From contig NZ_CP155551.1 in assembly GCF_039679125.1 (NCBI RefSeq), positions 1,922,001-1,986,000 on the forward strand: a stretch of 64,000 bases of DNA. Direction: 5' to 3'. The stretch's first letter is position 1. Each line of letters starts with the position of its first letter. Below the pieces are notes generated by a model. It was not told where the DNA came from and did no database searches. It saw only the letters and a list, made by a program, of their open reading frames with translations. The DNA comes from Blastococcus sp. HT6-4 (GTDB taxonomy: Bacteria > Actinomycetota > Actinomycetes > Mycobacteriales > Geodermatophilaceae). Below, piece by piece: positions 36,185-45,511 of this stretch. A program made the position numbers and the translations under genes.

Positions 36185-36472
36185 GACCTCAACGGCGCAC
36201 CGCCGGTGCAGTAGTGCCGCGCACTCGGTCAGCTGCTTGCGTGCGGCGCCGGGTGTTCTCAGGCATGCCGTCAGTCGTGGCGGAGCCGGTTGTGCCGGCC
36301 ATGGGCCGGGCCTGTGAGCCTGCTGGAGACCGGACGGCGCCCCTCGACGGCCCTGGACGGGGGAGCGGGACCACGGACCGGCTCACAGGAAGTGTGGAGT
36401 CGACGCTCAGTGACAGCGCAGCTCCGTGCCGCAACGTGGCGTTCGTTCCGTCGTCGACCCCTGGAAAGCCGG

Positions 36473-37111
36473 ATGTCCTCTCCTGTCTACCTGTACGCAG
36501 CCGATCTGCTCGCCATCGGGTTGCTCACCTTCGGGGTGTACTTCCCCCGCCACCGGCGCCGTGACCTGGTCATCGCCTACATCGGCGTCAACGTCGGCGT
36601 GCTGGCGGTCTCGGTCGCCCTCGCCGGCAGCGGCGTGGGCGCGGGCCTGGGCCTGGGGCTGTTCGGCGTGCTCTCCATCATCCGGTTGCGGTCCACCGAG
36701 CTCGACCAGCACGAGGTGGCCTACTACTTCTCGGCCCTGGCGCTGGGACTGCTGGGTGGGCTCGGCGCGGCGAGCGTCCCGCTGACCCTGGCCCTCATGG
36801 CCATGGTCGTCGTTGCCATGTACGCCGCCGGGCACCCGCGGCTGCTGCGCCGGTACCGCCGGCAGGTGATGGTCCTCGACTCCGCGTTCACCGACGAGCA
36901 GGGGCTGACCGCCCACCTGGAGGGCCTGCTCGGCGCACGCGTGCACCAGGTGACCGTCCAGCGCGTGGACCTGGTCAACGACACCACCTGGGTCGACGTC
37001 CGGTTCGAGGTCGCGCGTGAATCGCGGTCGGCGGTGCGCCCCGCTGCGTCGGCTTCCCCCGCTCCCTTCGGGCGGCACGACGGTCTCTCGTCCACCCCGG
37101 TGCAGCGGTGA
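36473..37111 (+). CDS. DUF4956 membrane protein
   Basis: A 212-residue protein with four membrane segments in the first 125 residues, including VGAGLGLGLFGVLSIIRLRSTELDQHEVAYYF, the conserved core of DUF4956. A small soluble alpha/beta domain (about 130-185) follows. DUF4956 genes are repeatedly found beside VTC-domain genes, as here; their function is not known. ATG 36473 has a GGAAAG site. The 288 bases upstream hold no gene that I can see. The stop overlaps the next start. Confidence 0.85.
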   Translation: MSSPVYLYAADLLAIGLLTFGVYFPRHRRRDLVIAYIGVNVGVLAVSVALAGSGVGAGLGLGLFGVLSIIRLRSTELDQHEVAYYFSALALGLLGGLGAASVPLTLALMAMVVVAMYAAGHPRLLRRYRRQVMVLDSAFTDEQGLTAHLEGLLGARVHQVTVQRVDLVNDTTWVDVRFEVARESRSAVRPAASASPAPFGRHDGLSSTPVQR

Positions 37112-37908
37112 CCGCGGTGGTGCCGGCGCTGCCGTCGGTGGAGCACCTCCCGCCCGTGGGGCTCGAGGAGCTCGTCGCCCGCGCGGCGCTGCAGACCCGG
37201 GTCGACCGCAAGTACGTCCTCCCGCTGCCCGCGGCCGAGCGGTTCCTGGCCGGCCTGGCGGGCACCGAGGAGGTGCGCGTGCTGGAGATGGCGGGGCTGC
37301 GCGCGTTCGGCTACGAGTCCCTCTACCTCGACACCCCGGAGCTGACCGGCTACCACCTCGCCGCCCGGGGCAGGAGGCGGCGGTTCAAGGTGCGCCGGCG
37401 CACGTACCTGGACACCGGAACCGCCTTCCTCGAGGTCAAGACCCGCGGGCCGCGCGGTGCGACGGTGAAGGAGCGCATCCCGGCCGCCGGTGACCGGCAG
37501 CACGTGGCCGCCTTCGTCGACGACGTCCTGGACCGGGCCGGCCTCGGCCAGGTCCGCAGCGACGAACTCCGGCCCGTGCTCCGCACCGCGTACCGGCGCA
37601 CCACCCTGCACCTCCCGGCCACCGACGGCCGGGTCACCGTCGACACCGACCTGACGTGGTCCCTGCCCGGCGGCCCGGCCGCCGGGCTCGCGGACGTCGT
37701 GCCCGTCGAGACCAAGTCGGGCTCCGCCCCCTCGGCGGCCGACCGCCGCCTGTGGCGATCGGGGCACCGGCCCACCCGGATCTCCAAGTACGGCACCGGG
37801 CTCGCCGCGCTGCGCGGCGACCTTCCCGACAACAAGTGGTGCCCGGTCCTGCGCCGGCACTTCTCCCTCCTGACCCCCTGTTCCTCCGACGATCGGAACC
37901 TCCCGTGA
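37108..37908 (+). CDS. VTC-domain protein, polyphosphate-polymerase-like
   Basis: A 266-residue protein of the triphosphate-tunnel (VTC/CYTH) fold. Basic and acidic residues expected in the tunnel are seen in TRVDRKYVLP (about 29-38), RRRRFKVRRRTYLDTGTAFLEVKTRGP, RTAYRRTTL, DTDLTW, PVETKSGS and RISKYGTG near the end. The eukaryotic VTC4 relative makes polyphosphate from ATP. It lacks the membrane and SPX parts of the yeast complex; DUF4956 next door may supply the membrane part. GTG 37108 overlaps the previous stop. Confidence 0.88.
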   Translation: MTAVVPALPSVEHLPPVGLEELVARAALQTRVDRKYVLPLPAAERFLAGLAGTEEVRVLEMAGLRAFGYESLYLDTPELTGYHLAARGRRRRFKVRRRTYLDTGTAFLEVKTRGPRGATVKERIPAAGDRQHVAAFVDDVLDRAGLGQVRSDELRPVLRTAYRRTTLHLPATDGRVTVDTDLTWSLPGGPAAGLADVVPVETKSGSAPSAADRRLWRSGHRPTRISKYGTGLAALRGDLPDNKWCPVLRRHFSLLTPCSSDDRNLP

Positions 37909-39681
37909 GCCGACTCGAGAAGACCCGCGCCGCGCTGTCCGGTGCGCTCATCGCCGCCGTCCTCGCCGGCTGCACCGCCGGGACCACCACGACAGGCTCC
38001 TCCGGTGGCACCGCCTCCACCGTCTCCGCCGAGGAGGTGTCGGCCAGCACGGGGATCTCCGTCGAGGACGCCGTCGCCGTCAACCTGGGCGCCCACGACG
38101 ACGACGCCGACCACGCCTACGAGGAGTCCGAGGTGCGAGATCGCGCTGACCGGCGACTCGGCCGAGACCGACTCGGACGCGGTCACGGTGTCCGACGGCA
38201 CGGTGACCATCACGGCGGCCGGCACCTACCGGCTCAGCGGCACCCTGGCGGGCCAGGTCGTCGTCGAGACCGAGGACGACGGGGTGGTCCGCGTCGTCCT
38301 GGACGACGCGGAGATCACCTCGTCCACGACGTCGGCCCTGGCGTTCATGGCGGCCGACATCGCGATGGTGGTCCTGGCCGACGGGTCCACGAACACCCTC
38401 GCCGACGGCTCCGACTACGCCGTCGACGGCGCGGAGCCCAACGCGGCGCTGTACAGCTCGGCGGACCTGACCCTCACCGGGGCCGGCGCGCTCACCGTCT
38501 CCGGCAACGCCAACGACGGCATCGCGAGCCAGGACGGCCTCGTGCTGGACTCGGGCACGGTCACCGTGGCGGCGGTCGACGACGGCATCCGCGGCAAGGA
38601 CTACCTCGTGGTCGAGGACGCCGACGTCACTGTCACGGCCGGCGGGGACGGCCTGAAGTCCGACGACGCCGAGGACACCACGGCCGGCTACGTGCACGTC
38701 GCGGGCGGATCGGTGGACGTGACCTCCGGCGGTGACGGCCTCGCCGCGGAGACCGACGTCATCGTGGGCGCCGGCACGGTGCAGGTCCGGGCAGGCGGCG
38801 GCAGCGGGGAGACCGTGGCCGAGGACGCCTCCGCCAAGGGGCTCAAGGGCACGGTCAGCGTGGTCGTCGGCGGCGGCACGGTCGACGTCGACTCCGCCGA
38901 CGACGCCGTCCACTCCGACGGCGTCGTCAGCATCCAGGACGGCACCCTCACGCTGGCGACGGCCGACGACGGCGTGCACGCGGACGGCGACGTCACGATC
39001 GCCGGCGGCGAGCTGACGGTGACCGGGTCCTACGAGGCGGTGGAGAGCGCGGTCATCACAATCTCCGGTGGGCAGCTGGACCTGACCGCGAGCGACGACG
39101 GCATCAACGTGGGCGGCGGCAACGACGGCTCCGGCGAGCAGGGCCCCGGCGGGAGCGGTGACTCCTTCGCCACCTCGAGCGCCTACCGGCTCACCATCAC
39201 CGGGGGCACCATCGCCGTCGATTCCGGCGGTGACGGCCTGGACTCCAACGGGAGCGGCACCATGACCGGCGGCACGGTCACGGTCAGCGGGCCCACGGAT
39301 TCGGGCAACGGCGCCATCGACGTGCAGAACGGCCTCGCCGTGAGCGGTGGCGACCTGCTGGTGACCGGCAGCTCGGGCATGGCACAGGCGCCGGTGACGT
39401 CGTCGGAGCAGGGCTGGTTGGCCGCCACCTTCGACGCGCAGGACGCCGGCTCGACGGTGGAGATCGTCTCCTCCGACGGCGACGTGCTGGGCAGCTGGAC
39501 GGCGGGCAAGGACTTCGCCCTGGTGACGTTCTCCTCCGCGGAGGTGGAGAGCGGCGCGCAGTACACCGTCGTGGTCGACGGCACGGAGCTGGGGACCGCG
39601 ACGGCCGGTGAGTTCAGCGGCGGCGGTATGGGCGGCGGCATGGGCGGGGGAGGCCCCCGCGGGGAGCGTCCCGGCGGCTGA
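37905..39681 (+). pseudogene. Beta-helix carbohydrate-binding-like lipoprotein, frameshifted
   Basis: From GTG 37905 (overlapping the VTC stop) the reading frame encodes a lipoprotein signal with lipobox LAGC and a linker up to SEV. It then runs into nonsense unless one base is removed at about 38136. The next frame continues as EIALTGDSAETDSDAVTVSDGT and gives a long repetitive beta-helix to 39681, with repeated DGV/DDG turns (GGDGLKSDD, SADDAVHSDG) and a Gly/Met-rich tail. The repaired product would be 591 residues. Such proteins accompany DUF4956-VTC genes in other bacteria. The split leaves the beta-helix without an export signal. Confidence 0.82.
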
Positions 39682-41968: not shown

Positions 41969-42182
41969 CCGAGCCGTCCCGGTCGCCGACCGCCTGCGGG
42001 ACGACCGCACGGTGGCGCGCACATCCACCGACCACCGTCTGCGGCCGGGCGGGCCAGGCGCCCGCCGGTGGCTCGACGGTCCCCACCGGCGGGCGCAGGG
42101 CATGATCAGGCATGGCCACCTGGTACCCACGACCGGACGGCACGCCTGCACGCGACGACGCGTCGGACCCGAGGTGCTGCGA

Positions 42183-43094
42183 ATGACCGATCCGCTCGCC
42201 CCCCATCGGGACCGCGACCCCGACGAGGTCGTCCCGGTCTTCTTCCTGTCCGACAGCACCGGGATCAGCGCCGAGACCATGGGCAACGCCCTGCTCATCC
42301 AGTTCCCCGACGTGTCCTTCGAGCGCACGCTGATCCCGTTCATCTCCACGGTGGAGATGGCGCGTGAGGTGGTGGCCCAGCTCGACGAGGCGATGGACGG
42401 ACCGGTGGCCCCCCTGGTGTTCTCCACCGCGGCCGTGGACGAGGTCCGCGAAGAGCTCATGCGGACGAGAGCGCCGATCATCGACTTCTTCGGCCTGCAC
42501 CTGAGCCGGGTGGAGGAGCAGCTGAAGGCCCGCGGGCTGCGCGAGGCCCGGCGGCTGCACGGTGTCGGCGACGTCCGGCGGTACAACAACCGGATGGCGG
42601 CGATCGAGTTCGCCATCGAGCACGACGACGGGCTGAGCCCGCGCGGGCTGGACCGGGCCGACGTGGTGCTGCTGGCCCCGTCCCGGTGCGGCAAGACGCC
42701 GACGGCGATGTACCTGGCCCTCCAGCACGGCCTATTCGTGGCCAACTACCCCCTCGTCGACGAGGATCTGGAGACCACGGACCTGCCCGACCCGGTCCGT
42801 GGTCTCGCCGACCGCTGCTTCGGGCTGACCACCACGGTGGCCCGGCTCAGCCGGGTCCGGCACGAGCGACGGCCGGACTCCCGGTACGCCTCCGAGGAGC
42901 AGTGCCGCTACGAGCTGCGCCGGGCGACGGCGATGTACGAGACGCACCACCTGCCCACGGTGGACACCTCGGCGGCCTCCGTCGAGGAGATCGCCGCCGT
43001 GGTGATCCAGACCCTGGCCAGGCAGCGGCGCAGCTCCGGCGCACGCCTGCAGTCCGGCCACGACCTCCGGCGAGGAAGGACCACCCGACCATGA
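42183..43094 (+). CDS. ppsR: PEP-synthase regulatory protein (PPSR, DUF299)
   Basis: A 303-residue bifunctional regulator that phosphorylates and dephosphorylates a Thr on PEP synthase, using ADP and phosphate respectively. [22 protein letters not shown] opens the family, and [15 protein letters not shown] (165-179) is its nucleotide loop. The C-terminus, [37 protein letters not shown], is also typical. It overlaps the target gene by ATGA, as expected for a dedicated regulator. Confidence 0.95.
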
Positions 43095-45511
43095 GCACCG
43101 ACACCACACCCCAGGCCCCGGCCGGCGGCACCCCGGACGACGCGGACAACGTCCGCTGGTTCGCCGAGCTCGGACTCGGCGACCTGGAGGTCGTCGGCGG
43201 CAAGAACGCCTCGCTCGGCGAGATGATCTCCCACCTCGCCGACGCCGGGGTCAGCGTCCCCGACGGCTTCGCCACCACGGCCGCGGCCTACCAGCGCTTC
43301 CTGGGCGACACGGGGCTCGCGGCCCGGATCGCGGAGCAGCTGCGCACGCTGGACACCGACGACGTCCGGGCGCTGTCCGCCGCAGGGAGGGAGATCCGCC
43401 GGGCGGTGGTCGAGCAGCCGTTCCCGCCGGCGCTGGAGGCCGACATCCGGGCCGCGTACGAGAAGCTCGCCGGGGACGACCCCCAGGCCTCCTTCGCGGT
43501 GCGGTCCAGCGCCACGGCCGAGGACCTGCCCGACGCCTCCTTCGCCGGCCAGCAGGAGACCTTCCTGAACGTGCGCGGCATCGACGCGGTGCTGCAGGCG
43601 GTCCGGGAGGTCTACGCCTCGCTCTACAACGACCGGGCCATCGCCTACCGCGTGCACCACGGCTTCGACCACGAGGCGGTGTCGCTGTCGGCGGGCGTGC
43701 AGCGGATGGTGCGCTCGGACGTCGGGGCCTCCGGCGTGCTGTTCACCATGGACACCGAGTCCGGCTTCCGGGACGCCGTCTTCGTCACCTCGGCCTACGG
43801 GCTGGGGGAGGGGGTGGTGCAGGGCGCGGTCAACCCCGACGAGTTCTACGTCTACAAGCCGGCCCTGCGCGCCGCGCGCCCCGCCATCCTCAAGCGCGGC
43901 GTGGGGGAGAAGGCCACGAAGATGGTCTACACCGACCACGCCGAGGTCGGCCGGACGACGGAGTTCGTCGACGTCGACCCTGCGGAGCGCCGGCGGCTGT
44001 CCCTGACCGACGACGAGGTCCTCGAGCTGGCCCGCCAGGCGCTGAGGATCGAGGAGCACTACGGCCGGCCCATGGACATCGAGTGGGGCAAGGACGGGCT
44101 GACCGGGAAGCTGTTCATCCTGCAGGCCCGTCCGGAGACCGTGCAGTCCCGCTCGGGCAACACCAGCGAGCGGTACCGGCTCACCGGCACCGGGGACGTC
44201 GTGGTCGAGGGGCGGGCGATCGGGCAGAAGATCGGCGCCGGCGCCGTCCGGGTGCTCTCCGACATCGACCAAATGGACTCCTTCGCCGCCGGCGACGTGC
44301 TGGTCGCCGACATGACCGACCCGGACTGGGAACCGATCATGAAGCGGGCCTCGGCCATCGTCACCGACCGCGGCGGGCGGACCTGCCACGCGGCGATCAT
44401 CGCCCGCGAGCTCGGCATCCCCGCCGTCGTCGGCACCGGGACCGCCACCCGCGTGCTCTCCGACGGCGCCCCGGTCACCGTCTCCTGCGCCGAGGGCGAC
44501 ACCGGCCTCGTGTACGCCGGTGAGGTGGGGTTCGAGGTGCTGGAGACCCAGCTGGACGCCATGCCCGAGATCCCGACGAAGATCATGATGAACGTGGGGA
44601 CGCCGGAGCAGGCGTTCGCGTTCTCCCGGCTGCCCCACGCCGGCGTCGGGCTGGCCCGGCTGGAGTTCATCATCAACCGGCAGATCGGGATCCACCCCCG
44701 CGCGCTGCTGGAGCTGGAGACCCTCGACGCCCCGCTGAAGGCGCAGATCGAGGAGCGGATCGTCGCCTACCCGTCGGCGCGGGACTTCTTCGTGCAGCGG
44801 GTCGCCGAGGGGATCTCCATGATCGCCGCGGCGTTCGCGCCCGAGCCGGTGATCGTGCGGATGAGCGACTTCAAGTCCAACGAGTACGCCAACCTCCTGG
44901 GCGGGGAGCTCTACGAGCCGCACGAGGAGAACCCGATGCTGGGCTACCGGGGCGCGTCGCGGTACCTGTCCGCCGACTTCGCCGACTGCTTCGCCATGGA
45001 GTGCGAGGCGCTGCGGTACGTCCGGGACGAGATGGGTCTGACCAACGTCAAGATCATGATCCCGTTCGTCCGGACCGTGGCGGAGATCGAGGGCGTGGTG
45101 CGCCTGCTCGGCGAGCACGGCCTGCGCCGCGGCGAGAACGACCTCTCCGTCGTGATGATGTGCGAGCTGCCGTCCAACGCGCTGCTGGCCGGCGAGTTCC
45201 TCGAGCACGTCGACGGCTTCTCCATCGGATCCAACGACATGACCCAGCTGGTGCTGGGCCTGGACCGCGACTCCAGCCTCGTAGCCGGCAGCTTCGACGA
45301 ACGCAACCCGGCCGTCCTCGCCGTGCTCGAGATGGCGATCAAGGCCTGTCTGGAGCGCGGCAAGTACGTCGGCATCTGCGGGCAGGGCCCCAGCGACCAT
45401 CCGGAGCTGGCCGAGTGGTTGGTGGCGCAGGGGATCGAGTCGATGTCGCTGAACCCCGACACCGTCGTCGACACCTGGCTGCACCTCGCCGGGCAGGCCC
45501 GCGCGACCTGA
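43091..45511 (+). CDS. ppsA: Phosphoenolpyruvate synthase
   Basis: An 806-residue enzyme converting pyruvate, ATP and water to PEP, AMP and phosphate for gluconeogenesis. The ATP-grasp domain is N-terminal ([24 protein letters not shown]). The swivelling domain carries [15 protein letters not shown]: His433 is the phosphocarrier and Thr431 the residue expected to be modified by PPSR. The C-terminal PEP/pyruvate barrel includes [18 protein letters not shown]. Length and order are normal. Confidence 0.97.

Follow-up and report, generated by a model that had tools for sequence, protein, structure and literature searches.

We report that a three-gene operon from the actinobacterium Blastococcus sp. 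HT6-4 is built around a gene pair, encoding a VTC-domain triphosphate-tunnel protein and a DUF4956 membrane protein, for which there is strong evidence of conservation as a unit, and that the third gene of the operon is exchangeable. The operon was studied in a window of 64,000 nucleotides (contig NZ_CP155551.1, positions 1,922,001 to 1,986,000, forward strand), and all coordinates below without a locus name are those of the window. Comparison with the yeast polymerase Vtc4 gives good grounds to regard the VTC protein as a member of the polyphosphate polymerase enzyme family with its catalytic set kept, and the genomic context ties the module to phosphate metabolism with moderate confidence. 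The best-supported reading, already put forward in a first-pass annotation of the window, is that the VTC protein would make polyphosphate with DUF4956 as the conduit, and the phosphate-linked neighbours and promoters described here strengthen it.

The operon lies on the forward strand and begins with the DUF4956 gene (36473..37111; 212 amino acids), whose product matches the Pfam family PF16316 over profile positions 1–169 of 169 (206 bits, cut-off 30.6). It is followed by the gene of the VTC protein, a putative polyphosphate polymerase (37108..37908; 266 amino acids; PF09359, 67.3 bits, Pfam cut-off 23), and by a gene for an exported lipoprotein with parallel beta-helix repeats of the Cthe_2159 type (PF14262, 307 bits, above the curated Pfam cut-off), whose nearest solved relative is 4peu/4phb (E 6e-32). 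Each gene overlaps the next by 4 bases. The three overlapping genes of the first-pass annotation are therefore present with the expected families; the lipoprotein gene, however, is broken by a change of frame that had been missed (see below). In addition to these three families, Pfam gave a sub-threshold match to PF25077 in the three proteins; SPX and DUF202/Vtc1-like membrane domains were not found in them by Pfam, and NCBIfam provides no name for any of the three.

The predicted structure of the VTC protein (predicted local distance difference test, pLDDT, 92; 43 sequences) has 13 best matches in PDB that are all chains of VTC complexes, Vtc4 being the first (3g3r, E 3e-13). A profile of 15 diverse bacterial VTC sequences aligns with Vtc4 residues 187–470 (E 6e-14). 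Nine Vtc4 positions were mapped to the window protein (K200 to K35, R264 to R96, R266 to R98, K281 to K111, K294 to K121, R361 to R164, R373 to R175, E426 to E201, and K458 to K227), and all nine residues are kept; the positions other than R264, R266, and E426 we take to be catalytic. Among 118 VTC sequences (including the window, the fragment L062, and L068, a repeat of L059), the equivalents of R264, R266, K281, R361, R373, E426, and K458 are present in every one, those of K294 in 117, and those of K200 in 116. The exceptions are L062 at both K121 and K35, and L149 at K35. The catalytic residues, on which the first-pass annotation had made its polymerase assignment depend, are thus intact. 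In passages of PMC9911596, a simultaneous change of R264, R266, and E426 of Vtc4 is reported to yield a catalytically impaired complex. No signal peptide was seen by eye in the VTC protein.

Five membrane helices are predicted in DUF4956 (residues 4–27, 30–51, 56–73, 79–96, and 102–120), followed by a C-terminal beta-alpha-beta-beta domain (128–179; model pLDDT 84) that is cytosolic by the positive-inside rule, the loops placed inside having 4, 2, and 5 basic residues and the loops placed outside none. An invariant cluster, GLFG-LSIIRLRS, is seen in 24 aligned rows. Assignment of the model to a known fold was attempted and rejected: Foldseek gave no PDB match at E ≤ 0.001, all rows of VIA-align had Z < 7, and the resemblance of the C-terminal half is to a common small alpha/beta arrangement.

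As anticipated by the first-pass annotation, the two families occur in the same genomes. Both were found in an identical 27 of the 150 order-set genomes (for each family, 11 of 55 genera), where each of the 31 matches to DUF4956 has a VTC match at a distance of about 1 kb or less. The class set, which overlaps the order set in three carriers (the window genome G000, G015, and G088), contains VTC in 40 and DUF4956 in 39 of 296 genomes, with 39 shared and 22 of 115 genera for each family; the one genome without DUF4956, G330, has its VTC match in two pieces. Both families also match in the same three of 14 control genomes, i.e., a Bacteroides, a Corynebacterium, and an archaeon. DUF4956 is present at 79 of 80 named loci; at the remaining one, L078, VTC and Cthe_2159 were found and no DUF4956 was detected by TBLASTN. 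Genome G015 carries three genes for VTC and two for DUF4956; the VTC gene left unpaired (L039, G015:2975741) is situated with CotH. In G042, a partial VTC match on contig C117 is unpaired as well. Over 114 loci, the identity matrices of VTC and DUF4956 correlate at 0.94 (none of 999 permutations was as high), a value to which common genome descent contributes. Spread of the genes by phages was considered and rejected, as there was no DUF4956 match in a phage collection and no relative of VTC or DUF4956 in viral contigs at the sensitivity used.

The third gene encodes a Cthe_2159 protein, CotH, or, in alphaproteobacteria, a phytase-like protein. Cthe_2159 alone accompanies the pair at 57 of the 80 named loci, CotH alone at 17, and both at one (L119, Sporosarcina). 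Neither was found on the same strand within 3.5 kb at five loci (L100, L109, L131, L135, L144), two of which, L131 and L144, are stretches that end just after VTC; L135 has CotH on the opposite strand and is classed as having no partner in this census and as a CotH locus in the tree described below. In the order set, PF14262 is situated beside the pair in 10 of 12 PF14262 genomes and on another contig in the other two, and 12 of the 18 matches to CotH are found no more than about 1 kb from VTC or DUF4956. A tree built from 114 VTC rows indicates that the partner has switched between Cthe_2159 and CotH at least seven times, e.g., within the starred Cryobacterium and Nocardioides groups, as counted on the 97 rows labelled Cthe_2159 alone or CotH alone. 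This is a quick tree with 42 of 111 inner branches open; L053, L054, L061, L062, L063, L131, and L068 were left out of it, and our gene calls of loci left out L054, L061, L062, and L063, which are fragments or contain no pair. The loci of L118 and L101, which bear CotH, yielded no Cthe_2159. By our own rule, 56 of 70 listed Cthe_2159 open reading frames (ORFs) contain a lipobox. The first-pass annotation had seen in the window a possible surface-assembly module; the lipoprotein is indeed there, but at least three different genes can occupy the third place, and what is conserved is the pair.

Several neighbourhoods connect the pair with phosphate; Pseudomonadota, Bacteroidota, Bacillota, and Archaea were covered by single records in this census. 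Twelve alphaproteobacterial plasmid records contain it, although they represent few independent cases (nine Aminobacter, two Shinella, and one Nitratireductor). A phytase-like gene directly follows VTC in 11 of them and follows PHO4 in the twelfth; the phytase-like annotation was viewed for five records and PF13449 was confirmed by Pfam for two. In Nitratireductor, the genes for DUF4956, VTC, a PHO4 transporter, and the phytase-like protein stand in a row. At another locus, L034, a PHO4-like gene was recognized by our own profile, not by Pfam. In Deinococcus sp. QL22, VTC and DUF4956 are followed by a gene for an acid phosphatase, on the opposite strand, and by phnDCE genes. In Pseudoalteromonas sp. 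CuT4-3, a phosphate-selective porin (Porin_O_P, 162 bits) is encoded directly after DUF4956. The respective plasmid locus (L189, 6273–8651) contains in a row a protein annotated as lamin-tail (31 bits, under the Pfam cut-off), a short ORF resembling the tail of VTC, DUF4956, and Porin_O_P, and the short ORF seems to be a remnant of a VTC gene lost by deletion.

The promoters were searched for the repeat GTTCAY-N5-GTTCAY, the Streptomyces-type PHO box according to passages of PMC4415409 and PMC7244524; the motif had been set before the test and was checked in these sources afterwards. With at most two mismatches, PHO-box-like repeats occur in 17 of 50 operon gaps, compared with 14 of the 355 remaining promoter-type gaps at these loci (p 2e-9 by Fisher test, overstated by kinship). 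Operons preceded by an exact repeat include those of L092, L141, L162, L168, and L171. The gaps were defined with our simple gene caller, 50 of the 80 named loci having a gap of at least 60 bases before DUF4956. Since related genomes are non-independent, the spread over genera is a better measure of the enrichment than p-values, and with one gap per genus (28 genera) it amounts to 10.1 vs. 1.0. A first-look count had given 29 of 79 upstream regions against 13 of 376 shifted windows, a weak control that is largely coding.

The distance between the two half-sites was scanned as well. Of the 79 upstream regions, 31 have the repeat with the spacer of 5 and 2 to 17 with each of the other 13 spacers, and sequences resampled with the same dinucleotides had a mean of 5.0 and a maximum of 10 in 30 draws. 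A second set of 53 upstream regions (53 of 55 kept, L025 and L026 being dropped as too similar to the first set, and loci with the reverse gene order being retained although their upstream is coding) has the repeat, with up to two mismatches, in 21 regions for the spacer of 5, including three exact repeats, and in 1 to 12 for each of the other 13 spacers; at no more than one mismatch the figures are 7 and 0 to 3. The genome of the window offers a positive control: of four places with an exact motif, one is located about 100 bases ahead of a gene for PstS (217 bits, cut-off 205). The test has its limits, however. In the first set at no more than one mismatch, the spacer of 6 is found in 8 of 79 regions and that of 5 in 7 of 79; at the same threshold in gaps only, the counts are 3/50 and 3/355 (p 0.03); and the other three exact places in the genome are not near obvious Pho genes (acetate-CoA ligase-like, helicase/SDR, and EAL neighbours). 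Judging from these sequence patterns, phosphate seems to control the operon in many actinobacteria. In the parts of PMC8269224 and PMC3353115 retrieved in search of a phosphate link, VTC, DUF4956, and CotH are not mentioned under the terms asked.

Taken as a mechanism, the module would consist of a VTC-like cytosolic polyphosphate polymerase and an unrelated membrane partner exporting the chain, an account to which we give about even credence. The VTC protein, a cytosolic triphosphate-tunnel polymerase, would build polyphosphate from ATP. DUF4956, its near-obligate membrane partner, would keep the polymerase on the inner side of the plasma membrane and let the growing chain out, a job done in yeast by the membrane helices of Vtc1/3/4, to which it has no detectable kinship. 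The chain might then be delivered outside the cytoplasm to the exchangeable third protein: in the window, a surface-anchored, strongly acidic Cthe_2159 lipoprotein (78 Asp and Glu vs. 12 Lys and Arg in the 513 residues of its body), which could hold the chain via calcium, and in other loci a protein with the CotH kinase fold or a phytase-like one. Polyphosphate as the product, its export, the path through DUF4956, and the role of the third protein are each inferred. PPK1 was found in 144 of the 150 order genomes, including all 27 VTC carriers, which rules out VTC as a substitute for PPK1; because VTC accompanies PPK1 rather than replacing it, a separate polyphosphate pool would fit.

A number of observations weigh against this account. 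As DUF4956 has no match to a known fold, its conduit role rests on topology and pairing, and R71, the first of the two conserved arginines, is not maintained in the alphaproteobacterial branch. DUF4956 is missing next to a few VTC genes (L078, L039, G042:C117, and G330). Binding of polyphosphate by an acidic lipoprotein would require a bridging cation, and the lipoprotein gene of the window is itself broken. The gap upstream of the operon (36185..36472) contains no PHO-box-like repeat, the best match having 4 mismatches. Genes of sugar degradation or sugar transport are found near the Shinella and Deinococcus QL22 loci, in the latter case with the sugar-degradation genes on the opposite side from the phosphate genes; Deinococcus taeanensis has CotH, VTC, and DUF4956 with no phosphate gene among the annotated neighbours; and the Pseudoalteromonas porin adjoins DUF4956 only, VTC being reduced there to an apparent tail. 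Finally, genes for a phosphodiester glycosidase-like and a GT2-GtrA-like protein are present together, within 8 kb, in the same 25 of 80 named loci (one representative of each family was confirmed by Pfam), which points to a polysaccharide.

This co-occurrence would fit a rival reading, namely that the pair modifies a surface polysaccharide or drives its export, e.g., by adding phosphate, that the third protein binds or attaches it, and that polyphosphate is not the product. Such a role would agree with the annotation of Cthe_2159 as carbohydrate-binding, with a cellulose-binding domain found by Pfam in one CotH partner (L071), and with the core genes reported beside Pel polysaccharide operons in passages of PMC7112168. 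On the other hand, 55 of the 80 named loci have neither glycan family in the stretch (up to 8 kb on each side, some shorter; the search covered these two families), and in Aminobacter, Nitratireductor, Deinococcus QL22, and Pseudoalteromonas the neighbouring annotated genes, as given in incomplete gene tables, comprise no glycosyltransferase, whereas phytase-like, phosphate-transport, phosphonate-transport, or phosphate-porin genes are among them. The PHO-box enrichment and a VTC catalytic set that is that of a polyphosphate polymerase likewise tell against a glycan role, which we regard as possible, if somewhat unlikely. In Arthrobacter-type loci, the glycan gene pair (L072, L097, and 23 further named loci in all) is situated directly upstream of DUF4956, at about 5.1–7.3 kb; in the others it is elsewhere.

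Polyphosphate could also be made and kept inside, with DUF4956 as a mere anchor and the third protein as a separate, co-regulated surface factor. The VTC protein without an apparent signal peptide, the C-terminal domain of DUF4956, which could serve as a dock, and the exchangeability of the third gene all accommodate such an arrangement. We nevertheless consider it quite improbable, given that the order-set VTC carriers already have PPK1, that the third gene is exported at most loci, as judged by the lipobox count, and that a phosphate-selective porin is encoded beside DUF4956. That the VTC domain is a triphosphate hydrolase or sensor, like many tunnel enzymes, signalling the phosphate or energy state to DUF4956 is highly doubtful. 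In its favour, triphosphatases and class IV cyclases do appear in the fold search, and two-component genes are near a minority of loci (a response regulator-like gene at 18 of 80 named loci); but the former rank below the VTC-complex chains that make up all best matches, and the window protein retains each of the nine mapped Vtc4 residues.

The polymerase-and-conduit reading allows a bolder extension, in which exported polyphosphate serves as an extracellular currency of phosphate and energy, with one conserved polymer pump, exchangeable consumers, and a third gene that decides the use. Secreted CotH kinases, for which ATP is unavailable outside the cell, would use the chain as their phosphate donor, phytase-like proteins would cleave it, and Cthe_2159 lipoproteins would hold it on the surface via calcium. 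We consider this extension distinctly unlikely and state it as a speculation.

The closest known counterpart is the eukaryotic VTC complex (yeast Vtc1/Vtc3/Vtc4), which, to judge from passages of PMC9911596, shares with the window module the tunnel-fold polymerase domain and its catalytic residues; here too, a membrane partner is predicted whose basic residues face the cytosol. The window proteins lack, by Pfam, the SPX and DUF202 domains, the membrane partner belongs to a separate family with no detected relationship, the system would reside at the plasma membrane and not at the vacuole, and it has a third, exported partner. The module may work as the eukaryotic complex does, without belonging to it. 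Bacterial polyphosphate is usually ascribed to cytosolic PPK1/PPK2; PPK1 also makes it from ATP and belongs to a different enzyme family. Cthe_2159 itself has been reported to bind cellulose and acidic sugars. The PF14262 proteins 4peu and 4phb are of the same sequence family as the third protein of the window, and the family is here linked to the VTC-DUF4956 pair.

No function has been described for this gene set in the literature searched, outside which lie preprints and most subscription papers, as the first-pass annotation had stated; the set itself, however, is in print. CotH, a poly-phosphate polymerase, DUF4956, and DUF4832 are listed in passages of PMC7112168 as accessory genes beside the Gram-positive pelDEADAFG operon. 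This is the VTC-type polymerase, DUF4956, and CotH combination of many loci here, whereas the third gene of the window encodes Cthe_2159 and CotH gave no match in its genome; the comparison did not extend to pel genes. The Clostridium perfringens locus NELoc-2 contains VTC-domain genes and CotH, according to passages of PMC2879425. Its two VTC-domain genes are each followed by a membrane protein of 222–226 amino acids (PMC2879425 and PMC11677781, in part), which is called a tubulin/FtsZ GTPase there; from size and place we infer that these proteins are DUF4956. If the proposed function is correct, a widespread second polymerase with its own membrane partner would explain polyphosphate found outside bacteria and give DUF4956 a function, and the coupling of polyphosphate synthesis to membrane passage would have been reached with different membrane subunits in bacteria and eukaryotes. 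The CotH, polymerase, and DUF4956 genes beside Pel operons and in NELoc-2 would then become a testable question.

The lipoprotein gene of the window occupies two frames on the forward strand. Its 5′ part (37905..38141, the end being approximate) comprises a GTG start at 37905, a signal peptide, and the lipobox VLAGC, and the body with the PF14262 repeats (38122..39681, the start being approximate) belongs to an ORF at 37942–39681 in the other frame. The nearest relative, L065 from Blastococcus sp. TF02-09, is an intact lipoprotein in one ORF; its residues 1–77 match the window in one frame and 72–571 in another, which places the switch between about 38122 and 38141. Hence, the window does not contain one intact gene for the exported Cthe_2159 protein. 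A long DNA match to the third gene was observed in three of 23 genomes of the genus, its own included (G000, G423, and G438); the G423 copy encodes the L065 protein, and the G438 copy is incomplete and frame-shifted. The break may be a true mutation or an error introduced by sequencing or assembly. Gene decay is favoured by the state of the G438 copy, whereas indel errors are favoured by a flavin adenine dinucleotide (FAD)-binding gene in the same window (PF00890; 31786–34338 and 32552–33190, forward strand) that is similarly split over two frames, with profile positions 1–106 in one and 113–414 in the other and a switch between about 33065 and 33262.

Regulatory genes are found near several of the operons. 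In four loci of one genus, our clustering places histidine kinase-like (L044, L052, L064) and response regulator-like (L041, L064) genes upstream of DUF4956-VTC; neither Cthe_2159 nor CotH was found nearby in these loci, and the two-component genes are perhaps a dedicated regulator. Four alphaproteobacterial operons (L148, 4022–6928; L187, 308–3167; L188, 308–3167; and L150, 1139–4024) have close by an annotated RNA polymerase sigma factor gene, accompanied in three of the four by an annotated anti-sigma factor, and an S8 serine peptidase. Elsewhere in the window, a PF03618 kinase/pyrophosphorylase gene (42012–43094, forward strand) adjoins a phosphoenolpyruvate (PEP) synthase-like gene with PPDK_N and PEP-utilizers domains (about 43100–45511, forward strand), an ordinary regulator-enzyme pair.

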